NCBI GenBank assembly: GCA_020072765.1
Contig: JAIQGD010000021.1
Location: 1 to 59,179 of the forward strand
Length of the DNA: 59,179 nucleotides
Source of the DNA: Terriglobia bacterium
Lineage (GTDB): Bacteria > Acidobacteriota > Terriglobia > Acidiferrales > UBA7541
Direction: 5' to 3'
Under the pieces are notes generated by a model. The model saw only the letters and a list, made by a program, of their open reading frames with translations. It did not search any database and was not told the origin of the DNA. A program made the position numbers and the translations under genes. This document shows, piece by piece, positions 2,021-45,590 of this stretch; the stretch's first letter is position 1; the number at the start of each line of letters is the position of its first letter.

Positions 2021-3690
2021 ATTCCGCGCTGGGATCGGCGCAACAGAAGGGGCAGCTCGCGGCCATCGCGTGGCTGCGCTGGCGGATTTTCGTCAACTCG
2101 CTGCGCACGGTGCGCGGCCGGCTGGAAGTGGTCTCCTGGATCCTGATGGTGCTGGGCTTCGCTCTGTTCGGACTGGGCGGGGCCTTCGGTCTGGGCGCGG
2201 CGGCGTGGTTTTTTGTTTCCCGAGGCACGGTCGAGTGGCTCACCGCTCTGCTGTGGGGTGTATTTTTGTACTGGCAGCTTTTCCCGGTGATGGCCACGGC
2301 GTTCAGCGAAACTTTCGACGCCTCGAATTTCCTCCGTTTCCCGCTCGCGTACCGGCCGTATTTCCTCATCCGCGTGATCTACGGCGCGCTCGACCCGTCC
2401 ACGATGATTGGGACGCTCTGGCTCATCGGGATCGCCGTGGGAACCGGAATCGCCGCGCCGCGACTGCTGCCGTGGGCCGCGCTGGTGCTCGCCGTGTTTG
2501 CGGCGTTCAACATCCTGCTGAATCGCCTGATCTTTGCCTGGATCGAGCGCTGGCTGGCGCAGCGGAAGACGCGCGAGATCTTCGGCATCGTTTTCTTCCT
2601 CTTCATCATCGGCTTCCAACTCACCGGGCCCACGATAAACTACTTCCGTCACCACGGTAAGAGTTCACGGCCCGAGCTGGCGGGCGTGGCGGCCCAATTG
2701 CTTCCGGCCGAGCGGCTTTTGCCGCCGGGACTTGCTTCCTCGGCGCTGGCCCGCGCGTCGCAGGGCGAACACCTGGCCGCGCTCGGAGCCTTCGTGCTTC
2801 TGTGCGCCTACGCGGGATTGTCCCTCCGGCTGCTCGGCGTGCGGATGCGCGCGCAGTACCGGGGAGAGAACCTCAGCGAGACGGCCGGGCGCACTGCTTC
2901 GCCCGGGGAGAAACAGGTTGTCCGCTCGGGCTGGCGCATCCCCGGAGTCTCCGCGCCGGTTGCGGCCATCATCGAGAAGGAATTCCGCTACCTCTCCCGC
3001 AGCGGCCCGCTGCTGTTCCTGCTAGTGATGCCCTTGGTCATACTGCTCATTTTCCGGATGGGGCCGGCGAACGCTGCGGGGCGAGGAAGCCATTTCCCGA
3101 CGCACGGAATCGATTTCATGTTTCCCGTGGGCGCCGCTTATGTGCTGCTGATGCTGAGCGGCGTCATGTACAACAATCTGGGAGTGGACGCCGGAGGCGT
3201 GCAGTTCTTCTTCATGTCGCCGCTGCGCTTCCGCGCGGTGATGCTGGCCAAAAACCTCGCGCAGGCCGCCGTGTTGACGATGGAAATGGGCTTCGTGTGG
3301 ATCGGCGCGGCGCTGATGTTCCACCCGCCGGCGATCGGCGTGACGCTGGCGACCCTAGCCGGAGTCACATTTGCGACGATCGTGAACTTCAGCGCGGGGA
3401 ATCTGCTTTCGCTGTACGCGCCGAAGAAAATTGATTTCGCCGTCTTCGGCCGGCAGCGTGCGTCCGGCATCACGGCGATCGCCAGTCTCGGCGTTCAGAT
3501 TGTGACGATCGGTCTGACGGCGCTGGCACTCGTCATGGCCACGCACTATGGCCGCCTGTGGCTCGCGACGCTGCTTCTTCTGGCGCTGGCCGCGGCGGCG
3601 GCCGCCGGCTACGCCGCCGTCCTCCACCGCATCGACCAGATCGCGCTCGACCGGCGCGAAGCCCTGTTCAGCGAGCTGTGCCGCGCGTAG
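2008..3690 (+). CDS. ABC transporter permease, large integral membrane subunit
   Basis: A protein of about 560 residues with many hydrophobic segments, including a pair near the N-terminus (LGFALFGLGGAFGLGAAAWF), several in the middle (AALVLAVFAAFNILL, IFGIVFFLFIIGF) and a cluster at the C-terminus. It is the likely membrane partner of the ATPase just upstream. I chose the GTG at 2008, which overlaps the ATPase stop by 13 bases and has an AGGAG six bases upstream; an ATG at 1798 lies deep inside the ATPase gene in another frame and is unlikely. The family looks like the large two-lobed ABC-2 type permeases of poorly known substrate. No catalytic motif is expected. Confidence 0.85.
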   Translation: MAGLNSALGSAQQKGQLAAIAWLRWRIFVNSLRTVRGRLEVVSWILMVLGFALFGLGGAFGLGAAAWFFVSRGTVEWLTALLWGVFLYWQLFPVMATAFSETFDASNFLRFPLAYRPYFLIRVIYGALDPSTMIGTLWLIGIAVGTGIAAPRLLPWAALVLAVFAAFNILLNRLIFAWIERWLAQRKTREIFGIVFFLFIIGFQLTGPTINYFRHHGKSSRPELAGVAAQLLPAERLLPPGLASSALARASQGEHLAALGAFVLLCAYAGLSLRLLGVRMRAQYRGENLSETAGRTASPGEKQVVRSGWRIPGVSAPVAAIIEKEFRYLSRSGPLLFLLVMPLVILLIFRMGPANAAGRGSHFPTHGIDFMFPVGAAYVLLMLSGVMYNNLGVDAGGVQFFFMSPLRFRAVMLAKNLAQAAVLTMEMGFVWIGAALMFHPPAIGVTLATLAGVTFATIVNFSAGNLLSLYAPKKIDFAVFGRQRASGITAIASLGVQIVTIGLTALALVMATHYGRLWLATLLLLALAAAAAAGYAAVLHRIDQIALDRREALFSELCRA

Positions 3691-17469: not shown

Positions 17470-17904
17470 CTACGGCGTGCGGGGTGCGCGGGCGGGCTCG
17501 ATTTCGTGCGGGGCGATCACGGCGGGCTGGGGGGCGCGGCGCAAGGCCACGAATTTCTCCACCGCGCAGCACGCGGAGTCCAGCCGCGCCCGGTCGCGCT
17601 GCATCTCCGGACTCTGCTGGAGATGTTCGAGCGTCCCGCGCAGGATGGCGGCGGCCGCCGGATCGGCGGGAACCTCCAGCCGGTAGTGCATCCACTTGCC
17701 CTCGCGCCGCGCGGAGACCAGGCCCGCCCGCCGCAGATAGGCCAGGTGGCGGGAGATCTTGGGCTGGCTCATGCGCAGGATGCCCACAAAATAGCAGACG
17801 CAGATTTCGCGGCCGGCGATGAGGTTGAGCAGGCGCAGGCGCGTGGAATCGGCAAGGGCGCGAAACAGGCCGCCCAGCGAAACAGGCGTGGAGGCGCGGG
17901 GCAT
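17470..17904 (-). CDS. arsR: ArsR-family metalloregulator
   Basis: A 144-residue winged-helix repressor that leaves DNA when it binds arsenite. The helix-turn-helix is MSQPKISRHLAYLRRAGLVS and the inducer site is the EICVCYF motif with Cys35 and Cys37 in the helix before it, as in type I ArsR proteins. A further SACCAV near the C-terminus adds two more Cys. I chose the ATG at 17904 because a TATACT -10 lies six bases upstream, which makes longer starts impossible on that transcript. It is divergent from arsM-arsC-acr3 and probably controls both directions from the shared 106-base gap. Confidence 0.92.
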   Translation of the reverse strand: MPRASTPVSLGGLFRALADSTRLRLLNLIAGREICVCYFVGILRMSQPKISRHLAYLRRAGLVSARREGKWMHYRLEVPADPAAAAILRGTLEHLQQSPEMQRDRARLDSACCAVEKFVALRRAPQPAVIAPHEIEPARAPRTP

Positions 17905-18010
17905 GCCGGGAGTATACAACATATTCGGCTTGACATATATGCGCACGCGGGATAGCCTGCCGATATATGCGCGCATCCAGATATGATCGGGGAGGCGCCC
18001 GGAGGATACC
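17905..18010. promoter_or_regulatory. Divergent ars promoter region with candidate ArsR operator
   Basis: On the minus strand TATACT (17916-17911) sits six bases from the arsR ATG. On the plus strand TTGACA (17930-17935) could pair with TAGCCT (17953-17958, 17-base spacer); a better -10, TATGAT (17982-17987), lies further down, followed by a strong GGAGGAT ribosome site (18001) before arsM. Between them are two direct copies of ATATATGCGC (17936-17945 and 17963-17972) and a perfect palindrome ATGCGCGCAT (17967-17976), well placed for a repressor. ArsR binding is an inference. Confidence 0.55.
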
Positions 18011-18904
18011 ATGGCCACCAACGACATCAAACAGATCGTCCAGAGCCGCTACGGAGAAGCCGCCCGGCGCGTATCCGCCGGCGAAGCCGCCGGCTGCGGC
18101 TGCCAGAGCAACGCCGTCCCCTGCTGCGATCCCATTTCCTCAAACCTCTATGCGGCGAATGAAACCGCCGCCCTGCCCCAGGAAGCCGTCGCCGCATCGC
18201 TGGGCTGCGGCAATCCCACGGCTCTGGCGCAACTCCATCCCGGGGAGCAAGTGCTGGATTTGGGCTCGGGCGGGGGCATCGACGTGCTGCTTTCCGCCAA
18301 ACGAGTCGGTCCCGCGGGTAAAGCCTACGGCCTGGACATGACCGACGACATGTTGGCGCTGGCCCGCGCCAACCAGCGCAAGGCGGGCGTCGAGAACGTG
18401 GAATTCCTCAAGGGCGAGATCGAGAACATTCCCCTGCCGGAAGCCTCGGTGGACGTGGTGATCTCGAATTGCGTGATCAATCTTTCCTCCGACAAGCAGC
18501 GCGTCTTGCGCGAAGCCTTCCGGGTGCTGCGGCCGGGCGGGCGATTCGCCGTTTCCGACGTGGTGGTGTGCGGTCCCGTGCCCGCGGAAATTCGCCGGAA
18601 TGTGGAGTTGTGGGTGGGCTGCGTCGCCGGAGCGATGGAGGAGTCGGAATACCGGAGCAAGCTGGCCGCCGCCGGATTCGCGGAGATCGAAATCGAGCGC
18701 ACGCGCGTGTACAGCGTCGAGGACGCGCGGCAATTTCTCACCGCGCAGGGCGTCGACGTGGACGCCATCGCGCCCCAGGTGAACGGCAAATTCGCCAGCG
18801 CGTTCATTCGCGCCCGCAAACCCGCGTTGGCCGCGCGCGCGAACGGAAGGTCCTGCTGTGGTGCGACGGCCTGCTGCGATTCCACCGAAGCCGCCAAGGC
18901 ATGA
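18011..18904 (+). CDS. arsM: Arsenite S-adenosylmethionine methyltransferase
   Basis: A 297-residue cytoplasmic enzyme that methylates arsenite using SAM. The SAM-binding motif is VLDLGSGGGIDVLLSAKRVG, followed by GLDMTDDML and NVEFLKGEIENIPLP. Arsenite-binding Cys are expected at the N-terminal cluster (CGCQSNAVPCCDP), in VISNCVINLS and in LWVGCVAGAM, all present. The C-terminus ends in a second Cys-rich tail (SCCGATACCDS), seen in many ArsM proteins. The N-terminal NDIKQIVQSRYGEAARRV is the usual ArsM start. First gene of the operon; its TGA overlaps the arsC ATG (ATGA), coupling translation. Confidence 0.95.
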   Translation: MATNDIKQIVQSRYGEAARRVSAGEAAGCGCQSNAVPCCDPISSNLYAANETAALPQEAVAASLGCGNPTALAQLHPGEQVLDLGSGGGIDVLLSAKRVGPAGKAYGLDMTDDMLALARANQRKAGVENVEFLKGEIENIPLPEASVDVVISNCVINLSSDKQRVLREAFRVLRPGGRFAVSDVVVCGPVPAEIRRNVELWVGCVAGAMEESEYRSKLAAAGFAEIEIERTRVYSVEDARQFLTAQGVDVDAIAPQVNGKFASAFIRARKPALAARANGRSCCGATACCDSTEAAKA

Positions 18905-19404
18905 CCATCGCGCCGGCGCGCTACAACGTGCTGTTTCTGTGTACCGGCAATTCCGCCCGGTCGATCATGGCCGAGGCCATTTTGAATTACCGGGGCGGGC
19001 CGAATTTCACGGCCTATAGCGCCGGGAGCCATCCGGTGGGGCAGGTGCGTCCCGAGGCGCTGCATCAGATCAAGCTCGCCGGTCTTTCCGCGGCCGGCCT
19101 GCGCAGCAAATCCTGGGATGAATTCGCCCAGCCGGGCGCGCCGCACATGAATTTCGTCTTCACTGTGTGCGACAACGCCGCCCACGAAGTCTGCCCCATC
19201 TGGCCGGGGCAGCCGATGACTGCACACTGGGGCATTCCCGACCCGGCGGTGGTGCAAGGAACGCCCGCGGAGATCGAGCGCGCGTTTCGCGACGCCTTCA
19301 CCCTGCTCGACCGGAGAATCGGATTGTTCCTCAGCCTGCCGCTGGCCAGCATCAATGAACTCTCCCTGCTGGGGGAACTCCGCCGCATCGGCCAAACATC
19401 ATGA
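18901..19404 (+). CDS. arsC: Arsenate reductase, low-molecular-weight phosphatase (thioredoxin-linked) type
   Basis: A 167-residue enzyme that reduces arsenate to arsenite for export. NVLFLCTGNSARSIMAEAIL holds the phosphatase-like P-loop with nucleophile Cys14 and the general RS. Two further Cys in VFTVCDNAAHEVCPIWPG can shuttle the disulfide to thioredoxin, as in the Bacillus-type enzyme; the spacing between them is eight residues, one more than in B. subtilis ArsC. The general acid is in WGIPDPA. I used the ATG at 18901 that overlaps the arsM stop; the frame is open far upstream inside arsM but that is antisense-free overlap only. Confidence 0.9.
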   Translation: MTIAPARYNVLFLCTGNSARSIMAEAILNYRGGPNFTAYSAGSHPVGQVRPEALHQIKLAGLSAAGLRSKSWDEFAQPGAPHMNFVFTVCDNAAHEVCPIWPGQPMTAHWGIPDPAVVQGTPAEIERAFRDAFTLLDRRIGLFLSLPLASINELSLLGELRRIGQTS

Positions 19405-20501
19405 CGCCACCCCGCGCCGCGAAAGGACCCGACGTGCAGGCCCCGCCGAAGAGGCTGAATTTTTTCGAGCGCTATCTGAGCGCGTGGGTGGCCGCGTGCA
19501 TGGCCGCGGGCCTCCTGCTGGGCAAGTTTCTGCCCGGATGGACGCGGGCGTTCCGGGAACTGGAATTTGGAAAAGGCAGCCAAATCAACCTGCCGATCGC
19601 CGTGCTCATCTGGCTGATGATCGTCCCCATGATGATGAAGGTGGATTTCACCGCCATTCTGAAAGTGGGCCAGAAGCCGCGGGGCGTGCTGATCACGCTC
19701 TTCGTCAATTGGATGGTGAAACCCTTTTCGATGGCCTTGATCTCCTGGATCTTCTTCCGCCACGTCTTCGCCGCGTGGATTTCCCCCGCCGAGGCCGGCC
19801 AGTACATCGCCGGGACCATCATCCTGGCCGCGGCGCCGTGCACGGCCATGGTGTTCGTCTGGAGCCATCTGACCGGCGGCGACCCAGGGTATACGCTGGT
19901 CCAGGTGTCGCTGAACGATCTGATCATGCTGTTTCTGTTCGCGCCGATTGTGCGGTATCTGGTGAGCGGCGCCTCTTCGCTGTCCGTGCCCTTCATGGTG
20001 CTGCTCTATTCCGTCGTTGCGTTCATCGTGATCCCTCTGGGCGCGGGTGTGGCGCTCCGGGTATGGCTCGTCGGGCGCCACGGCAAGGAGTGGTTTGAGA
20101 CGGCCCTGCTGCCCCGGCTTGCTCCCGTGACCATCCTGGCGCTGCTCGCGACGCTGGTGCTGATCTTTGCCTTCCAGGCGGACAACATCACCGGAAAATC
20201 GTTCCACGTGCTGCTGATCGCCGTGCCCATTCTGCTCCAGGTCTATTTCAATTCCTCGCTGGCCTATGGCCTCATGCGGTTGTTCCGCGTGGAGCACGCG
20301 GTGGCCGCGCCGGGCGCCCTGATCGGCGCCAGCAACTTCTTCGAGCTGGCCGTGGCCACGGCCATCGTTCTGTTCGGCCCGGGTTCCGGGGCGGCGCTGG
20401 CCACCGTGGTGGGAGTCCTGATCGAAGTGCCGGTCATGCTCTCGGTCTGCGCGGTGTGCAATCGCACGCGCCATTGGTTCCCTCGACCCGCGTCGGGATA
20501 G
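19401..20501 (+). CDS. acr3: ACR3-family arsenite efflux permease
   Basis: A 366-residue inner-membrane protein with about ten hydrophobic helices. The LIWLMIVPMMMKVDF segment and the AGTIILAAAPCTAMVFVWSHLTGG segment with its conserved Cys, which is needed for arsenite transport in ACR3, are both present, as is QVYFNSSLAYGLMRLF and APGALIGASNFFELAVATAI. It exports arsenite using the proton motive force. The ATG overlaps the arsC stop (ATGA), so the operon arsM-arsC-acr3 is fully coupled. The following ~97 bases before the his promoter contain no clear terminator. Confidence 0.95.
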   Translation: MTPPRAAKGPDVQAPPKRLNFFERYLSAWVAACMAAGLLLGKFLPGWTRAFRELEFGKGSQINLPIAVLIWLMIVPMMMKVDFTAILKVGQKPRGVLITLFVNWMVKPFSMALISWIFFRHVFAAWISPAEAGQYIAGTIILAAAPCTAMVFVWSHLTGGDPGYTLVQVSLNDLIMLFLFAPIVRYLVSGASSLSVPFMVLLYSVVAFIVIPLGAGVALRVWLVGRHGKEWFETALLPRLAPVTILALLATLVLIFAFQADNITGKSFHVLLIAVPILLQVYFNSSLAYGLMRLFRVEHAVAAPGALIGASNFFELAVATAIVLFGPGSGAALATVVGVLIEVPVMLSVCAVCNRTRHWFPRPASG

Positions 20502-20598
20502 CGCGGGCCATAGTAGGGATCGCCCTGCGCTGGTGGAGCCGCGCTGCTGTGGTAAAATCCTGGTGTTACGACAGGGGCCAAGATCTGTAAAATCGCGC

Positions 20599-20627
20599 TT
20601 GACAATCAGGACATATTGGTCTAGATT
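20599..20627 (+). promoter_or_regulatory. Promoter of the histidine operon leader
   Basis: TTGACA (20599-20604) is a perfect -35; a 17-base spacer leads to TAGATT (20622-20627), a four-of-six match to the -10. The expected start site is about 20634, only three bases before the leader-peptide ATG at 20637, and no Shine-Dalgarno sequence fits in between. The transcript should therefore begin almost at the leader peptide and run through the attenuator into hisI. Confidence 0.75.
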
Positions 20628-20636
20628 TGCCCCAAT

Positions 20637-20702
20637 ATGAAGCTGCAGGCGCACCACCTCCATCATCACCACGCGAACCCGTGCCTGCGGCGGTGTGGCT
20701 AG
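20637..20702 (+). CDS. hisL: His operon leader peptide
   Basis: A 21-codon open frame reading [15 protein letters not shown] and then CLRRCG, stop TAG. Six of seven consecutive codons (20652-20672) are His codons, the signature of an attenuation leader peptide whose translation speed reports charged tRNA-His. It lies 10 bases after a promoter and just upstream of mutually exclusive RNA pairings and a terminator, then hisI. It is too short for ordinary gene callers. The sequence is unlike the enterobacterial leader outside the His run, so it is probably an independent or strongly diverged case. Confidence 0.85.
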
Positions 20703-20766
20703 CTCGAACTACGAAGCTGGACTCATTTAACCCGCTGGCGCGGCAAGCGCCAGCGGGTTTTTTATT
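20642..20766 (+). promoter_or_regulatory. His operon transcription attenuator (RNA segments 1-4)
   Basis: Four segments can be read. Segment 1 GCTGCAGGC (20642-20650) pairs with segment 2 GCCTGCGGC (20683-20691), nine pairs with one G-U. Segment 2 shifted by two, GTGCCTGCGG (20681-20690), pairs instead with segment 3 CCGCTGGCGC (20732-20741), ten positions with one G-U and one U-U mismatch. Segment 3 (20729-20741) pairs with segment 4 (20747-20759) to form the terminator. A ribosome stalled on the His codons (20652-20672) would cover segment 1, freeing 2 to pair with 3 and so block the terminator. Smooth translation would allow 1:2 and 3:4. This is the classic logic. Confidence 0.8.
20729..20766 (+). 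terminator. Attenuator terminator before hisI
   Basis: A perfect 13-base-pair stem, AACCCGCTGGCGC with GCGCCAGCGGGTT, around the loop GGCAA, followed by a T-rich run (TTTTTATTTT). It lies 27 bases after the leader-peptide stop and 36 bases before the hisI ATG. Its 5' arm is also the 3' arm of the antiterminator pairing. Confidence 0.93.
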
Positions 20767-20794
20767 TTCCGGAGGCTTTTTTTTGGGAGAGACC

Positions 20795-21184
20795 ATGGAA
20801 CTGGATTTCGAAAAGGAAAACGGACTGATCCCCGCCATCGTGCAGGATCACGCGAGCGGCGAAGTCTTGATGCTCGGCTTCATGAACCGGGAGGCCTACG
20901 CCAAGACGCGGGAGACCGGCTTCGTCACGTTCTACAGCCGGTCGCGGCAGAAGCTCTGGACCAAGGGCGAGACCAGCGGCCAGAAGCTCCTGCTGCGCGA
21001 CTTGCGCGTCGATTGCGACCTCGATGCCCTGCTCGTGCGCGCCGAACTCGAAGGCGGCGCCGTCTGCCACGAGGGCTACCGCAGCTGCTTCTTCCGCCAG
21101 ATCGCGCCCGACGGCTCGGCGCGGGTGGTCGGAGAGCGCGTCTTTACGCCCGAGGAACTCTATGGAAAGGGATCGAAACAATGA
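20795..21184 (+). CDS. hisI: Phosphoribosyl-AMP cyclohydrolase
   Basis: A 129-residue zinc enzyme that opens the purine ring of phosphoribosyl-AMP, the third step of histidine synthesis. Family motifs are visible: [37 protein letters not shown], the metal-binding [10 protein letters not shown] and [12 protein letters not shown]. It is the PRA-CH domain alone; the PRA-PH (HisE) activity is not fused and no hisE is seen in the window. The ATG at 20795 is preceded by GGGAGA. Longer in-frame starts would run through the attenuator and are rejected. The stop overlaps the hisG start (ATGA). Confidence 0.95.
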
Positions 21185-22053
21185 GCCGTCTGAAACTCGG
21201 CATCCCCAAGGGAAGCCTGCAGGATTCGACCGTGGAACTGTTCGCCAAGGCCGGCTGGCGCATTTCGGTGAGTTCGCGCAGCTACTATCCGGGTGTGGAC
21301 GATCCCGAGATCGAATGCATGATGGTGCGCGCGCAGGAAATGGCGCGCTACGTCGAAAGCGGCGCGCTCGACGCCGGGCTGACCGGCAAGGACTGGATCC
21401 AGGAAACCGGCTCGGACGTGGTCGAGGTGGCCGAGCTGATCTATTCGAAGACCAGCCTGGGGCGCGTGCGCTGGGTGCTCGCCGTGGCCGAGGATTCGCC
21501 GATCCAGAGCGTGCGCGATCTCGAAGGGAAAGTGATCGCCACCGAGGCCGTGCGCATGACCGAGAAATACCTCGAGCGCAACGGCGTGAAGGCGCGCGTG
21601 GAATTTTCCTGGGGCGCGACGGAAGTGAAAGTTCCCGACCTGGCCGACGGGATCGTCGAAGTGACGGAAACGGGCTCCTCGCTGCGCGCCAATCACCTGC
21701 GCGTGGTCGATACGCTGCTGGAATCCGCCCCGTGGTTCATCGCCAATCGCAAGGCCTGGCAGGACGCCTGGAAGCGCGAAAAGATCGAGAACATCGTGCT
21801 GCTGCTCGAGGGCGCCATCAAGGCCTACAACCGCGTGGGACTCATGCTCAACGTGCGCCGCATGGACCTGGAAAAAGTGCTGGGGACGCTGCCCGCGCTG
21901 CGCAATCCCACCATCGCGCAGCTGAGCGATCCGGGATGGGTGGCCATCAACACCATTGTGGAGGAAAAGACGGTCCGGCAACTGATTCCCAAGCTGAAGT
22001 CGGCCGGGGCGGAAGGGATTGTTGAGTATCCGCTCAACAAGATCGTGTACTGA
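21181..22053 (+). CDS. hisG: ATP phosphoribosyltransferase, long form
   Basis: A 290-residue enzyme that joins ATP and PRPP, the committed and feedback-inhibited step of histidine synthesis. The N-terminus [22 protein letters not shown], the [10 protein letters not shown] loop and the PRPP-type [14 protein letters not shown] are typical. The C-terminal ~75 residues ([40 protein letters not shown]) form the ACT-like regulatory domain of long-form HisG, so no HisZ partner is needed. The start overlaps hisI and the stop overlaps hisD (TGATG). Confidence 0.96.
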
Positions 22054-23306
22054 TGCGCGTCCTTCGGCTCACGAACGCTACGGAGGATCAGGTGCTGGCC
22101 TCGCGCCGGGCCAGCAGCCGCGACGCCGAACGCGTGGCTGCGGGCATCGTCGAGGACGTGCGGCGCCGCGGCGATGCGGCGCTGTTTTCGTGGACCAAGC
22201 GCCTGGATCGCCTGGCGCTGGGCCCGCGCACCGTCTGGGCCACGCGCGCCGAGATGGCGCGGGCCGCCCGCAAAGTGCCAAAGCCGTTTCTCTCCGCCAT
22301 CGACCACGCCGCCCGCAACATCCGCGCCGTGGCGCGCCGCCAGAAACCGCAGGAATGGACCATCCAGGTCGAGCCGGGCGTGCGCGCCGGACAACTCGTT
22401 CGTCCCATCGAGTCCATCGGGTGCTATCTGCCGGGCGGCCGCTTCTCGCTGGTTTCCACGCTGCTGATGACCGTGATTCCCGCGCAGGAAGCGGGCGTGC
22501 GCAACATCGTCGTGGTGAGCCCGCAGCCGGGCCCCGCGCTGCTGGCGGCTGCCGCGCGGCTCGGCGTGGCGTCGGTGGCCCGCGTGGGCGGGGCGCAGGC
22601 TATCGCCGCCCTGGCCTACGGGACGCGCTCGATTCCGCGCGTGGACAAAATTTTCGGGCCGGGCAACCGCTTCGTCACCGCCGCCAAGAAGCTCGTCAGC
22701 GCCGACTGCGCCATTGATCTCCTGGCCGGGCCGACCGAAGCCATCGTCTTTGCCACGCGCGGCAACCCGCGCTTTATGGCCGCGGATTTGATCGCGCAGG
22801 CCGAGCACGATCCCGACGCCATCGCGCTGTTCGTGACCACGTCGTCGCGCCTGGCGCGCGAGGTGGCTCAGGAAACCGAGCGCCAGCTGTTCGACCTGCC
22901 CAAGACGAATCTGGCGCGGCGCGCGCTGGAGAAAAACGGCGCGGCGCTGGTGGCCCGCAACCTCGCCGACGCGGCGCGCTTCGTCAACCGCTTTGCCCCG
23001 GAACATCTGAGCCTACCCGGCAAAGGGGATGGCCTGCTCGCGCGCATTGATTCCGCCGGAAGCATTTTCCTGGGCGATTGGAGCGCGCAGACGTTCGGCG
23101 ACTACGCCAGCGGCACCAACCACGTCCTGCCGACGGGCGGCGTGGCGCGGACGCGCGGCGGCCTTTCGGTCGCCGATTTCGTGAAATGCATCAGCGTGCA
23201 GGAGGTGTCGCGCGCCGGATGTGCGCGGCTGGCTCCGGTGGCCGAGGAGTTCGCGCGCGCCGAAGGTTTACAGGCGCACGCGCGGGCCGTCGAGGTGCGC
23301 CGGTGA
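22053..23306 (+). CDS. hisD: Histidinol dehydrogenase
   Basis: A 417-residue zinc enzyme that oxidises histidinol to histidine in two NAD-dependent steps, the last of the pathway. Key stretches are IGCYLPGGRFSLVSTLLMT, VDKIFGPGNRFVTAAKKLV, LAGPTEAIVFA, the QAEHDPDAIALF motif, FAPEHLSL and NHVLPTGGVARTRGGLSVAD, which include the usual zinc- and substrate-binding residues. Length is normal for the family (about 425). It overlaps hisG by one base and hisC by four (GTGA). Confidence 0.96.
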   Translation: MRVLRLTNATEDQVLASRRASSRDAERVAAGIVEDVRRRGDAALFSWTKRLDRLALGPRTVWATRAEMARAARKVPKPFLSAIDHAARNIRAVARRQKPQEWTIQVEPGVRAGQLVRPIESIGCYLPGGRFSLVSTLLMTVIPAQEAGVRNIVVVSPQPGPALLAAAARLGVASVARVGGAQAIAALAYGTRSIPRVDKIFGPGNRFVTAAKKLVSADCAIDLLAGPTEAIVFATRGNPRFMAADLIAQAEHDPDAIALFVTTSSRLAREVAQETERQLFDLPKTNLARRALEKNGAALVARNLADAARFVNRFAPEHLSLPGKGDGLLARIDSAGSIFLGDWSAQTFGDYASGTNHVLPTGGVARTRGGLSVADFVKCISVQEVSRAGCARLAPVAEEFARAEGLQAHARAVEVRR

Positions 23307-24358
23307 AGACCTCGCTTCCCGTGCGGCGCGCCGTCGAGCGCATGCGCGCCTATCATCCTCCCCTCGAGGGACGCACGGAAAAGCTGCGCCTCGATTTCAA
23401 CGAGAACCCCATCGGCTGCTCGCCCGCCGTGCGCCGCGCTCTGGCGCAACTCAGCGCCGCGTCCATCGCCTCCTATCCCGAGCAGGAGACGGTGCGCCGC
23501 AAGGCCGCGCGCTTCTTCGGCGTCGCGCCGGAGGAACTGCTGCTGACCAACGGCACGGACGAGGCGCTCAGCCTGGTCGTGCACACCTTCGTCGAACCCG
23601 GCGACACCGTGCTGTTCGTCGAGCCGACCTACGCGATGTACCGCTTCTACGCGGAACTGGCCGGGGCGCGCATCGTGGCGCCGCGCTACGACGCCGCCAT
23701 GTGTTTCCCGTGGAACAATGTGATCGAGGCGCTCCGGGCCGGCCCGCGCGTCTTCTTCTTGCCCAACCCCAATAGTCCCACGGGCAACCTGCTCTCCTTG
23801 CGCGAGTTGCGGCGCATCCTCACCGCCGCGCGGCGGACCATGGTCGTGATCGACGAAGCCTATTTCGAATTTTCCGGCGTGACGGTGATCCCCTGGATCC
23901 GGCGGCACAAAAATCTGATCGTCACGCGCACGTTTTCGAAGACGGCGGGGCTGGCCGGCCTGCGCCTGGGCTGCCTGTTCGTCCATCGCGAACTCGCGGC
24001 CAGCATGAGGAAGGCGCAATCGCCCTATCCCGTGAACGCGGCGGCGCTGGTGGCCGCCGAAGCGGCCATGCGCGACCGCGTCTTCATTGCCCGCACGCTG
24101 CGCGAGGTGCGCCGCGGGCGGCGCGAACTCGAACGCGGGCTCGACCGCCTGGGCATCCGCTACTTTCCCAGCGCGGGAAATTTCCTGCTCGTGCATCTGG
24201 GCGCGAAGGCCAAACAAATCGTCGCGGCCCTGGCCCGCCAGGGCACGCTGGTCCGCGACCGCTCCAGCGATTTCGGCGGCGAAGGCTACGTGCGCATCAC
24301 TCTCGGGACGCCCGGCCAGATGCGGCGCCTGCTGCGCGAACTGAAAGAACACTCATGA
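23303..24358 (+). CDS. hisC: Histidinol-phosphate aminotransferase
   Basis: A 351-residue PLP enzyme (fold type I) that transaminates imidazole acetol phosphate. It shows LDFNENPIGCSP near the N-terminus, TNGTDEALSLVV, the PNPNSPTGN loop, VVIDEAYFEF, and the PLP lysine in TRTFSKTAGLAGLRLG, followed by VRDRSSDFGGEGYVRITLGT with the phosphate-binding Arg. I chose the GTG at 23303, which overlaps the hisD stop; the frame continues upstream inside hisD but gives non-homologous residues. It overlaps hisB by ATGA. Confidence 0.95.
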   Translation: MKTSLPVRRAVERMRAYHPPLEGRTEKLRLDFNENPIGCSPAVRRALAQLSAASIASYPEQETVRRKAARFFGVAPEELLLTNGTDEALSLVVHTFVEPGDTVLFVEPTYAMYRFYAELAGARIVAPRYDAAMCFPWNNVIEALRAGPRVFFLPNPNSPTGNLLSLRELRRILTAARRTMVVIDEAYFEFSGVTVIPWIRRHKNLIVTRTFSKTAGLAGLRLGCLFVHRELAASMRKAQSPYPVNAAALVAAEAAMRDRVFIARTLREVRRGRRELERGLDRLGIRYFPSAGNFLLVHLGAKAKQIVAALARQGTLVRDRSSDFGGEGYVRITLGTPGQMRRLLRELKEHS

Positions 24359-24942
24359 GAAAAGCGAAATCACAGCGCACCACCAAGGAAACCGACATCC
24401 GCCTGCGGCTCAATCTCGACGGCCGCGGAAAATCGCGAATCAGCACGGGCATTCGCTTCTTCGACCACATGCTCGAGCAGGTGGCGCGCCACGGCGGCCT
24501 GGATCTGGAGCTCGCGGCGCGCGGCGATCTCGACGTGGACCAGCACCACACCGTCGAGGACGTGGGCATCGCGCTGGGAGAAGCGGTGAAGCAGGCGCTG
24601 GGATCGAAGCGCGGAATTCTGCGCGCGGGTTATTTCCTGATGCCCATGGACGATTGCCTGGCGGCCGCCGCGCTGGATTTTTCCGGCCGGGCCTACTGCG
24701 TCTGCACCTGGAAACTTTCCGCGGCGCGCGTGGGCGATTTCCAGACCGAGCTGATGGAGGATTTCTTCCGGGCGTTCGCGCAGGGAGCGGCGGCCAACGT
24801 GCACCTGAAGCTGGTCTACGGGCGGTCTTCGCACCATCAGGTGGAGGCGATCTTCAAGGCGTTTGCCAAGGCGCTGCGTTTCGCCGTCACGCGCGACCGC
24901 CAATTGCGCCGCGTGCTGCCCTCAACCAAGGGGCTGCTGTGA
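24355..24942 (+). CDS. hisB: Imidazoleglycerol-phosphate dehydratase
   Basis: A 195-residue monofunctional IGPD, without the N-terminal histidinol-phosphatase domain found in enterobacteria. Metal-ligand motifs are intact: FFDHMLEQVARHGG, DVDQHHTVEDVGIALGEAV and SSHHQVEAIFKAFAKAL. It removes water from imidazoleglycerol phosphate with two Mn ions. Overlaps hisC and hisH by four bases each. The separate histidinol-phosphate phosphatase is not encoded in the window. Confidence 0.96.
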   Translation: MRKAKSQRTTKETDIRLRLNLDGRGKSRISTGIRFFDHMLEQVARHGGLDLELAARGDLDVDQHHTVEDVGIALGEAVKQALGSKRGILRAGYFLMPMDDCLAAAALDFSGRAYCVCTWKLSAARVGDFQTELMEDFFRAFAQGAAANVHLKLVYGRSSHHQVEAIFKAFAKALRFAVTRDRQLRRVLPSTKGLL

Positions 24943-25544
24943 AGCTAACCATCGTTGATTACGGCGCGGGGAATCTTCCGTCGGTCGAGCGCGCGTTCGA
25001 AGGCTTGGGCGCCCAGACCGAGCGGGCCGTCGCGCCGCAACAGCTCGCTGCGGCCCGGGCCATCGTGCTTCCCGGCGTGGGACATTTTTCCGCCTTCGTG
25101 GCCGGGCTGCGCGAACGCAACCTCACCGGTGCGCTGCGCGCCGCATGGCAGGCCGGCGTGCCCATCCTCGGAATCTGCCTCGGCCTGCAGGCGATGTTCG
25201 CATCCAGCGAAGAGGCCCCCGGCGAAGCGGGTCTGGGCTTTTTCCCGGAAAACGTCTGCGCGCTGCCGACCAACGTGAAATCGCCGCACATCGGCTGGAA
25301 CCAGTTGCGACGCATGCGGGAAAGCCGTCTGTTGCAAGGCATCCCCGAAGACGCTTATTTTTATTTCGCGCATTCCTACGCCGCGCCGGCCACCGCGCCC
25401 GCCACCGTGGCGGCGTGCGATCACGGCATTTCGTTCGCCGCGGTGATCGAGCAGGGCCGTCTGGCCGCCGTGCAGTTTCACCCGGAAAAATCGGGCGAGA
25501 CGGGCGCGCGTGTCCTGCGCAATTTTCTGGAGTCCCTGTCATGA
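24939..25544 (+). CDS. hisH: Imidazole glycerol phosphate synthase, glutaminase subunit
   Basis: A 201-residue class I glutamine amidotransferase that feeds ammonia to HisF. The start GTG at 24939 overlaps the hisB stop (GTGA) and gives the family N-terminus LTIVDYGAGNLPSVERAFE. The oxyanion strand is VLPGVGHFSAF, the nucleophile is the Cys in GICLGLQAMF, and the His-Glu pair is in AVQFHPEKSG. It ends four bases into hisF. Together with HisF it converts PRFAR to imidazoleglycerol phosphate and AICAR. Confidence 0.96.
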   Translation: MKLTIVDYGAGNLPSVERAFEGLGAQTERAVAPQQLAAARAIVLPGVGHFSAFVAGLRERNLTGALRAAWQAGVPILGICLGLQAMFASSEEAPGEAGLGFFPENVCALPTNVKSPHIGWNQLRRMRESRLLQGIPEDAYFYFAHSYAAPATAPATVAACDHGISFAAVIEQGRLAAVQFHPEKSGETGARVLRNFLESLS

Positions 25545-26305
25545 CGCTCGCGCGAAGAATTATTCCCTGCCTGGACGTGGACGCCGGGCGCGTCGTCAAA
25601 GGAATCGAATTCGAGGGCCTGCGCGACATGGGCGATCCGGCCGAACTCGCGGCGCGCTACAACCTCGAGGGCGCCGACGAACTGGTCGTGCTCGATATCA
25701 GCGCCTCGGTCGAGGGACGCGCCACCTTCCTGGACACCATTCGCCGCGTGGCCGAACAACTGAACATCCCGCTGACGGCCGGCGGCGGAATTCGCAAGAT
25801 GGAAGACGGCCGCGCGGTGCTGCGCGCGGGAGCCGACAAGGTCACGGTCAACACCGCGGCGGTCGAGCGGCCGCAATTAATTTCCGAGCTGGCGCAGCAA
25901 TTCGGGTCGCAGGCCGTGGTGCTCTCGCTCGACGTGAAGCGCACCAACAGTTCGTGGGAAGCCTACGTGCGCGGCGGGCGCGACGCGACCGGGCTCGACG
26001 CCGCCGAATGGGCCGCCGAAGCCGTCCTGCGCGGCGCGGGAGAAATCCTGCTCACCTCGATCGACCGCGACGGCACATGCAGCGGGTTCGATTGCGCGCT
26101 GACCGCGAAAATCGCCGCCACCGTCCCGGTGCCGGTGATCGCCTCGGGCGGCGCCAGCACCTTCGAGGATTTTCTGGCCGTCTTTACCGAAGGAAAGGCG
26201 GACGCGGCGCTCGCCGCATCCATCTTCCACACCGAGACGCATTCCATCGCCGCGCTCAAGAAATTCCTGGCCAGGCACGGCGTGCCGGTGCGCCTGTCGA
26301 AATGA
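25541..26305 (+). CDS. hisF: Imidazole glycerol phosphate synthase, cyclase subunit
   Basis: A 254-residue TIM barrel. The two catalytic Asp lie in [14 protein letters not shown] (first) and [20 protein letters not shown] (second); phosphate-binding glycines are in [10 protein letters not shown] and [11 protein letters not shown]. It receives ammonia from HisH through the barrel. The ATG at 25541 overlaps the hisH stop. After hisF the tight spacing of the operon is broken: 193 bases with a short palindromic element separate it from hisA. Confidence 0.96.
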
Positions 26306-26498: not shown

Positions 26499-27146
26499 AT
26501 GATTATTCCCTGTATCGACCTGCAAGACGGAAAAGCCGTGCAGCTGGTGCGCGGCCGGCGGCGCGCTCTCGCCGTGGACGACATCCTCGGCCTGCTCGAC
26601 CGCTTCCGCGCCTATCCCATCCTGCACGTGATCGACCTCGACGCCGCCATGCGCAAAGGGTCGAACGCCCGCTGGATCAAGCGGCTCTGCCGCGAAGCCC
26701 ATCGAAAAGTGCGCGTCGGCGGCGGCATCCGCACCGTCGCCCAGGCCGCGCGGATTCTCTCCTGGGGCGCCGAGAAAATCATCGTGGGCAGCGCGGCCTT
26801 CCGGAGCATCATCGTCGCGCTGGACACCGAAGGCGGCCGCATCGTCGTGCGCGGATGGCGGGAACGCCTGAAGCTGCGCCCCGCTGACGTCATTCCCGCG
26901 CTCGAACCCTACTGCTCCGAGTTCCTTTCCACGTTTGTGGACAATGAAGGCACGATGAAGGGCACCGACCTCGCCTGGTTCCGCCAGTTGCGCCGCGTGA
27001 CCAAGCTGCCCGTCACCGCCGCCGGCGGAATTCGCAGCCTCCGCGAAGTGCGCGCCCTGGAAAAAATCGGCATGCACGCCGCCGTAGGCATGGCCATCTA
27101 CACCGGCAAACTCGCCGCCGATCAGACTGGCCTGGGCAAGAAGTAG
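26499..27146 (+). CDS. hisA: HisA-type isomerase, internally shortened
   Basis: The last his gene, 215 residues, about 25-30 shorter than usual for phosphoribosylformimino-AICAR ribotide isomerase. It keeps the N-terminal catalytic IIPCIDLQDGKAVQLVRG, VGGGIRTVAQAARIL, the second Asp in IIVALDTEGGRIVVRGW, and the phosphate site TAAGGIRSLREVRAL. The gap is between IIVGSAAFRS and IIVALD, where normal enzymes have a helix of about 20 residues (usually NPELVKEA-like). Everything else is in frame, so this may be an in-frame deletion. Whether the enzyme still works is open. Its 3' end is duplicated at 28562-28638. Confidence 0.88.
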   Translation: MIIPCIDLQDGKAVQLVRGRRRALAVDDILGLLDRFRAYPILHVIDLDAAMRKGSNARWIKRLCREAHRKVRVGGGIRTVAQAARILSWGAEKIIVGSAAFRSIIVALDTEGGRIVVRGWRERLKLRPADVIPALEPYCSEFLSTFVDNEGTMKGTDLAWFRQLRRVTKLPVTAAGGIRSLREVRALEKIGMHAAVGMAIYTGKLAADQTGLGKK

Positions 27147-43715: not shown

Positions 43716-45590
43716 ATGAAGAGTCACGAAAAGAAGATCTTATCTGGTTTGCTCGTGCTCCTGGCACTCGCCCTGGTCGCGGTGATTTTCACTCGCGACT
43801 GGGCCAACGATCGCGAACGGCTGCGCGCCGCGCGCTCGGCCTCCCGACACACCGCCAATCCGGTCGACATGCGGCCGCTCGACACGGCACAGCAGCTCGC
43901 ACAGCTCGCGGTCACACACGCCGAGCAGGACTACGCCCAGCAGGCCCTGCGTCTCGCCGATCACTCGGTCGATCTCGCGTTTGCCGCGGCGATTCAGGAC
44001 GCGGTGGAAAATCCCGCGCCGCTCACTCCGGAGACCCGCGAACTCTTGGCGCGGATCAAGGAAGGAGAGGCGGCGATCGCCGCGGACCAGAGCCGCATCA
44101 CGCAATTCACCCAGGTGCTCGCCCAGGCGGAAGGCAGCGCCCGGGAGGATCTCCAGCAGCTCATCGCCATTGCGCAAGGCCAGCTCGCGCTCGATCAGGA
44201 CGACCTCGAGGACGCCCACCAAGACCTGATTCGAGCCGGAGGTGACCGGCAGGCAACGATCCAGCATCTGCTCGATCAACACAAAGCCTCCTCCGCGCAG
44301 AGCGCCAGCGCTCTTGTGGGTGCTTCCGCCGGAGCGCCCTCGTCGGTCGAGCTGACCCAATCAAGAAACATCTCCGACGAGGTGCGGGCGTGGATGTCGC
44401 TGCGTTCGAAGCAATCGCTTCTGATGCAGGCTCAGCAGGAGGCGCTCGCGCGCGCGGCGAAGCTTTCCGAGGAGCACGGGGCGCTCGAAAAACAACTCGA
44501 GGAAGGAATACCCACGGGCCAGAACGCGCCCGGCCCGGCATCGAACACGCCACCGGCAGCAGGTTCACCAAACGCGGAGGCCGAGCCCGGCGGGAACCCC
44601 GCACTCGCGCGTTTGCATCACCTGACGGAGGAAAAGAAGAAGCTTTCCGATTTCGACAAGCGCATCGAGACCGAGCAGCAACTTGCCGGCGTCCACGCCA
44701 ACTGGATTACGCTGGTCAACGTGCGCGAGAAGGCTTTCCTGCAGCGCATTTCCGTGTCCGTGTTCTCCATCTTGCTGATCGCCATGGTCGCGCTGCTTGC
44801 GAATTCCTGGATTCAGCGGGTTTTCGCGGCTCTGGCTCTCGATCAGCGCCCGATGCACACCTTGCGCGCACTAATCCTATTCGGCGTGCAGGCTCTGGGC
44901 CTCGTGTTGATCTTGCTTGTGATCTTCGGCATGCCGGGTAATTTCGCGACGGTTCTCGCGCTGGCTGGCGCCGGCCTGACCGTGGCGATGAAGGATTTCA
45001 TCGTGGGGTTCTTCGGCTGGTTCGTTCTTTTGGGCAAGGACGGAATCCGCGCGGGCGATTGGGTGGAGATCAACGGAGTCAGTGGAGAGGTGCTGAGGGT
45101 CGGCCCGCTGCACACCGTCATCCTCGAGACAGGCAACTGGACCGACGCGGGTCACCCGACCGGGCGCAAAGTCTCGTTCGTGAACAGCTTCGCCATCGAA
45201 GGGCACTACTTCAATTTTTCAACGAAGGGCCAGTGGCTCTGGGACGAAATCCAGGTGCTGATTCCCGACACCGCCGAGCCGTACGCGGCCGCCGAGGCGA
45301 TGCAGAAGATCGCAGCGGATGAAACGGCTGCAAACGCGCAGCTTGCCGAGGAGGAGTGGAACCGCGCCACACCTTCCGATGTGCGACGCTCGTTTTCGGC
45401 CGCTCCTTCCTTGAGCATCCGGCCAACGGGTTCGGGCATCAACGTCGTGCTGCGGTACATCACCCGCGCGAGCGAGCGCTACGCGGTCCGCACGCGTCTC
45501 TATCGCGCCGTCGTTGAACTCCTGCACGGGAAGAAGGGACGCGCATCGGCCGAAGGGCCGGCTCCTCCCCGCGTCGCCGGCCGCGACTGA
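43716..45590 (+). CDS. MscS-family mechanosensitive channel with long N-terminal coiled coil
   Basis: A 624-residue membrane protein. It begins with a signal anchor (ILSGLLVLLALALVAVIFTR), then ~330 residues of periplasmic coiled-coil and Ala/Gln-rich sequence (QQLAQLAVTHAEQDYAQQAL, EQQLAGVHANWITLVNVREK). Three or four membrane helices follow, ending in the pore helix with Gly/Ala spacing (ATVLALAGAGLTVAMKDFIV) and the MscS beta domain (VEINGVSGEVLRVGPLHTVI). It should open on membrane tension to release solutes. The long N-terminus is like MscK-type channels. A CATAAT box lies 30 bases before the ATG. Confidence 0.88.
   Translation: MKSHEKKILSGLLVLLALALVAVIFTRDWANDRERLRAARSASRHTANPVDMRPLDTAQQLAQLAVTHAEQDYAQQALRLADHSVDLAFAAAIQDAVENPAPLTPETRELLARIKEGEAAIAADQSRITQFTQVLAQAEGSAREDLQQLIAIAQGQLALDQDDLEDAHQDLIRAGGDRQATIQHLLDQHKASSAQSASALVGASAGAPSSVELTQSRNISDEVRAWMSLRSKQSLLMQAQQEALARAAKLSEEHGALEKQLEEGIPTGQNAPGPASNTPPAAGSPNAEAEPGGNPALARLHHLTEEKKKLSDFDKRIETEQQLAGVHANWITLVNVREKAFLQRISVSVFSILLIAMVALLANSWIQRVFAALALDQRPMHTLRALILFGVQALGLVLILLVIFGMPGNFATVLALAGAGLTVAMKDFIVGFFGWFVLLGKDGIRAGDWVEINGVSGEVLRVGPLHTVILETGNWTDAGHPTGRKVSFVNSFAIEGHYFNFSTKGQWLWDEIQVLIPDTAEPYAAAEAMQKIAADETAANAQLAEEEWNRATPSDVRRSFSAAPSLSIRPTGSGINVVLRYITRASERYAVRTRLYRAVVELLHGKKGRASAEGPAPPRVAGRD

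Follow-up and report, generated by a model that had tools for sequence, protein, structure and literature searches.

A putative attenuator of the histidine operon in Acidobacteriota, predicted to act on a leaderless leader mRNA

The his operon leader and its surroundings

The DNA analysed here, a 59,179-nucleotide stretch from a Terriglobia bacterium that we refer to as the window, carries a histidine biosynthesis operon in the order hisIGDCBHF(A) downstream of a short leader region at positions 20599-20794; operon and leader lie on the plus strand. The first gene is hisI, encoding phosphoribosyl-AMP cyclohydrolase (20795-21184; PF01502, and NF000768 above cut-off). It is followed by hisG, hisD, a hisC-like aminotransferase gene, hisB, a hisH-like amidotransferase gene and hisF, all recognised by Pfam matches (21181-26305), and by a hisA-like gene (26499-27146; PF00977). 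An earlier sequence-only reading of this region took the host to be acidobacterial, which agrees with the best named hisI matches: these are Bryobacteraceae and Terriglobia MAGs, in a collection that may omit the records nearest to the window. The gene upstream of the leader, 136 bp away on the same strand, encodes an SBF/ACR3-type transporter (Pfam); among relatives the upstream genes vary, and some are oriented divergently. In the window, an apparent arsenic cluster (17470-20501) precedes the his operon and comprises an ArsR-like regulator on the minus strand, an ArsM-like methyltransferase, an arsenate-reductase-like protein and the SBF/ACR3-type transporter, with the regulator and the reductase-like protein named from sequence reading only.

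The leader begins with a promoter (20599-20627) made up of a -35 element, TTGACA (20599-20604), a 17 nt spacer and a -10 element, TAGATT (20622-20627). From the -10 spacing and the lack of an SD sequence, transcription is predicted to start at 20634-20637, at most about 4 nt from the leader AUG. The leader peptide ORF (20637-20702) runs over 21 codons from its ATG to a TAG stop codon (20700-20702) and contains six His codons within seven (20652-20657 and 20661-20672). It is the sole short ORF in the window with at least four His in seven codons; ten simulated windows (first-order Markov) yielded a mean of 0.5 such ORFs, none of them with at least five.

Around this ORF, four RNA segments can pair in mutually exclusive ways. 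Segment 1 (20642-20652) forms an 11-pair helix with positions 20681-20691 of segment 2 (20679-20691). Alternatively, segment 2 pairs through 20679-20690 with 20732-20743 of segment 3 (20729-20743), in a helix of 11 pairs plus one U.U mismatch. Positions 20729-20741 of segment 3 are also the 5' arm of an intrinsic terminator of 13 pairs, whose 3' arm (20747-20759) is segment 4; this is followed by a U-tract, TTTTTT (segment 4 and U-tract together, 20747-20764), before hisI. Pairing 2:3 needs segment 2, which 1:2 also uses, and segment 3, which 3:4 also uses, and hence excludes both. A further mid-hairpin (20692-20727) surrounds the leader stop codon inside the 2:3 enclosure. Segment 1 reaches one base into the first His codon (to 20652), and from the likely ribosome footprint we infer that a ribosome stalled on the His codons would mask this segment, the protector arm. 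A CACTCAT-like block just 5' of the terminator (20699-20728) is conserved in the window's family and seems to belong to the mid-hairpin.

The sequence-only reading had described a consensus promoter, a 21-codon frame with six His codons in a run of seven, a 13-pair terminator with a U-tract and a segment 1 that abuts the His codons, all of which we recovered at the positions given above. The exclusive pairings 1:2 and 2:3 that it proposed exist as well, but it had assigned them too few pairs, both helices extending to 11.

Covariation, folding and conservation of the leader

To assess the helices, we used a swap test on 38 nonredundant leaders, in which the pairing of a segment with its own partner is compared to its pairing with swapped partners, row and column effects being subtracted, with 20000 permutations. 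All three helices covary, with z -5.7 for 1:2, z -5.4 for 2:3 and z -13.2 for 3:4 (0 of 20000 permutations in each case). Small, non-zero values were also obtained for two control pairings, 1:3 (z -2.0) and 1:4 (z -2.8), indicating that relatedness adds somewhat to the covariation statistics. In the more divergent half of the leaders the signal for 1:2 is weak (z -1.9) and that for 2:3 still reaches z -4.0. The mid-hairpin that surrounds the stop codon shows covariation between its halves too (z -3.7). Pair changes were counted in a 29-sequence MAFFT alignment, where both sides have changed in 13 of the 21 pairs of 1:2 and 3:4 taken together and in 5 of the 11 pairs of 2:3; 88.5% of the alignment cells pair, versus 32-52% with the partners slid. 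Compensatory changes, the absence of which the sequence-only reading had named as evidence against its proposal, are thus present in 1:2, 2:3 and 3:4. Segments 1 and 2 read GCAGGCGC/GTGCCTGC in the window, GCGAGCAC/GTGCTCGC in relative L021 and ACTGACAC/GTGTCAGT in relative L022.

When folded in full, the leader RNA of the window adopts 1:2 together with the terminator and the mid-hairpin (-62.3 kcal/mol, z -4.0). If segment 1 is left out and the transcript ends before segment 4, the minimum-energy fold becomes 2:3 (-32.2 to -32.6 kcal/mol), and with a ribosome placed, by assumption, on the leader stop codon, the terminator alone is left in the fold. An Rfam search of the window at the gathering score returned no match to His_leader (RF00514), a T-box or a riboswitch, and neither did a search of 20550-20850 up to E 10; the best leader-type match is Trp_leader, at 18.6 bits versus a cut-off of 41.

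We surveyed conservation in a first set of 61 genomes from the same genus, family, order and class, and read 30 hisI loci in them. Upstream of hisI, 29 of these 30 loci have a His-rich ORF some 20-24 aa in length, and the leaders share the promoter geometry (TTGAC/TANNNT, at a fixed distance to the ATG) and the terminator. A wider sample of 297 genomes of the phylum showed the His-rich leader at 24 of 28 further best hisI loci; the leader adjoins hisI in 12 of 40 additional phylum loci. The run of His codons is therefore kept in relatives (29/30 and 24/28), contrary to the loss that the sequence-only reading had named as a refutation, and few parts of the leader, variable elsewhere, are as constant. 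The 266 kb concerned were also examined on the opposite strand as a control, which has two His-rich short ORFs, one of them with a terminator. The segment 2 sequence pattern matched only 3 of 396 phylum genomes, which suggests that the logic is conserved rather than the sequence. A leader next to hisI was found in 17 families, by the family codes of the sampled genomes, and, of the named records, MAGs labelled Terriglobia, Bryobacteraceae and Vicinamibacterales carry it. Many families of the phylum in which hisI is fused or comes late showed no leader in the stretches read. In other gene orders, a leader with terminator stands before hisG (locus L151, near 60-120) or hisD (locus L176, near 1634-1720), about 6 kb upstream of hisI; both are on the reverse complement, and hisG and hisD were named from sequence. 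These cases indicate that the leader goes with the operon rather than with any single gene. By these sequence criteria, the predicted device precedes the his operon across much of the phylum Acidobacteriota.

Several variants were seen. Three loci of one family in the same class (L022, L024 and L026) have only three to four scattered His codons, with helices 1:2 and 2:3 intact. In four others (L006, L016, L017 and L020) hisI lies an extra 60-150 bp beyond the terminator, so the leader can stand at some distance from this gene. GTG-start His-rich short ORFs with a terminator also precede hisI in two records whose labels point to other phyla, titled Armatimonadetes and Ferrithrix thermotolerans (L040 and L041).

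Proposed mechanism and rival explanations

The leader thus combines a short ORF and its His codons with a promoter of fixed geometry and with three covarying helices; 1:2 and 3:4 are both incompatible with 2:3. Such an arrangement very probably attenuates transcription of the his operon in the classical, ribosome-mediated way, with a leader mRNA that is itself leaderless. Its start site, the stalling of the ribosome, termination in vivo and the response to histidine would then fit together as follows. Transcription would start at or a few bases from the leader AUG, and the ribosome would bind the 5' end directly. When His-tRNA is ample, the ribosome would pass the His codons and reach the stop codon (20700-20702), covering segment 2, and the 3:4 terminator would end the transcript ahead of hisI. 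Under a shortage of His-tRNA, the ribosome would stall on the early His codons and cover segment 1; segment 2 would then pair with segment 3, no terminator would form, and hisIGDCBHF would be transcribed. If the leader were not translated at all, 1:2 would form and the terminator would win again.

Attenuation could be right and the leaderless start wrong, if a promoter farther upstream gave the leader mRNA a normal 5' UTR and its translation were conventional, with the AUG-proximal promoter playing a minor part. The leader start site is a prediction, and the same-strand transporter gene 136 bp upstream could read through. We nevertheless consider this unlikely. Of 72 leaders, 57 have a TANNNT hexamer beginning 14-16 nt ahead of the ATG, a fixed spacing at which the start site is expected within about 4 nt of the ATG, and an SD-like 4-mer occurs in 1 of the 72 leaders versus 24 of 30 hisI starts, leaving 71 of 72 leaders with no SD-like sequence; moreover, the genes upstream differ or diverge in relatives. 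The bases directly before the leader ATG are most commonly T and C. Promoter spacing and the absent SD together suggest that the his leader mRNA is probably leaderless, in a phylum where leaderless genes have been predicted to make up about 13% of genes in three genomes (PMC3160421).

Far less probable is that the short ORF works on hisI by translational coupling or reinitiation instead of a transcription terminator. Acidobacterial short leader genes are enriched near the next gene, and reinitiation has been proposed for them (PMC4833913), but here the leader stop is 92 nt from the hisI start (up to about 240 nt in relatives) with a strong, conserved terminator between the two, hisI mostly has an SD-like sequence of its own (in the 24 of 30 starts mentioned above), and all three attenuator helices covary. 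Direct sensing of tRNA or histidine by the RNA, as a T-box or riboswitch to which the peptide would be incidental, has precedent in the T-box control of his genes known from Firmicutes and Actinobacteria (PMC9413887); that Rfam searches up to E 10 returned neither a T-box nor a riboswitch, and that the His run is so constant, make it highly implausible. Equally hard to credit is a chance His-rich frame beside the terminator of the upstream gene, even though a 3' terminator of the transporter gene would also fall in this interval: we rejected it given some two such ORFs in 266 kb and phylum-wide conservation with differing upstream genes. A plain upstream terminator was also rejected, since 1:2 and 2:3 covary, which a plain terminator does not need.

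Known attenuators and Cys-rich leaders of the same genome

Ribosome-mediated attenuation is a known kind of regulation, and what is new in the device predicted here is its apparently leaderless form, in Acidobacteriota. The leader resembles the hisL of E. coli and other gammaproteobacteria (RF00514) in its run of His codons, its mutually exclusive antiterminator and terminator and its position directly upstream of the his operon. It differs from hisL in having no Rfam match, another peptide and RNA, a hisI-first operon and a predicted leaderless start, whereas enterobacterial hisL is SD-led. The sequence-only reading, which saw hisL logic in a different peptide and RNA, is borne out in this respect. 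In Firmicutes, his attenuators have been predicted in the Bacillus cereus group, Peptostreptococcaceae and Erysipelotrichales (PMC9413887), and hisS/hisZ leader peptides in bacilli (PMC2965389). These likewise have a His-rich leader peptide with a predicted terminator and antiterminator outside Proteobacteria; they are confined to a few lineages, whereas the acidobacterial ones occur across much of the phylum. A leaderless attenuator transcript is known from Sinorhizobium meliloti trpL (rnTrpL), which begins at the ATG of the leader ORF (PMC7298713); that single documented case concerns tryptophan, whereas the present one concerns histidine and a geometry predicted phylum-wide. Leader-peptide attenuation has been described in Proteobacteria, Actinobacteria and Firmicutes, and almost none of the predicted attenuators of Acidobacteria have an assigned function (PMC2965389; PMC9413887). 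The earlier reading knew of no acidobacterial case, and in our search of openly accessible literature we found no description of an acidobacterial his attenuator, though an earlier mention may exist elsewhere.

Predicted attenuation of the his operon is now placed across much of the phylum, with covariation evidence, and the probable leaderless start, this spread and the Cys-rich counterparts in the same genome go beyond what the sequence-only reading had noticed. For annotators, the locus offers a small peptide and an RNA element absent from Rfam. With its apparently leaderless start, attenuation would lend itself naturally to tests of leaderless translation. A broader reading, to which we commit ourselves only tentatively although it has a real chance of being true, is that Acidobacteriota possess an old, phylum-wide system of leaderless attenuators based on leader peptides, serving His and, within this genus, Cys and sulfur assimilation as well; direct loading at the 5' AUG, rather than an SD sequence, would supply the sensing ribosome. 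Were this so, segment 1 would lie within roughly the first 20 nt of the transcript, under the ribosome from initiation onwards, and the switch would also be a readout of how well the cell can translate leaderless messages.

Other leaders were sought in the same genome by a pattern of the promoter-to-ATG geometry, which occurs at 24 places. Besides the his leader, two of the 24 carry amino-acid runs and terminators, and both are Cys-rich. No comparable leader was seen in the regions upstream of trpE, ilvB and leuA. One of the two, MLWLPNACCLCCRKTHMCASGAPGFLS, stands before cysD-cysN (minus strand of contig C81, near 44332-44374; L196/L204), and the other, MEFHTQFAACTPCCCSATAGAGVRSE, before a sulfite/nitrite reductase-type gene (minus strand of contig C77, near 3509-3548; L193/L233); each is predicted to be leaderless and is followed by a terminator. 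They parallel the leaderless Cys-rich uORFs of mycobacteria, found upstream of cysA2 and others (PMC4633059), in that a run of the pathway amino acid precedes the matching genes. For the mycobacterial cys leaders, no conserved terminator hairpin was found (PMC1262725), whereas the window's leader combines histidine with a terminator. In relatives, a Cys-rich leader with a terminator precedes cysD at 11 of the 12 closest loci, own locus included, and the reductase gene at 6 of the 11 loci read.
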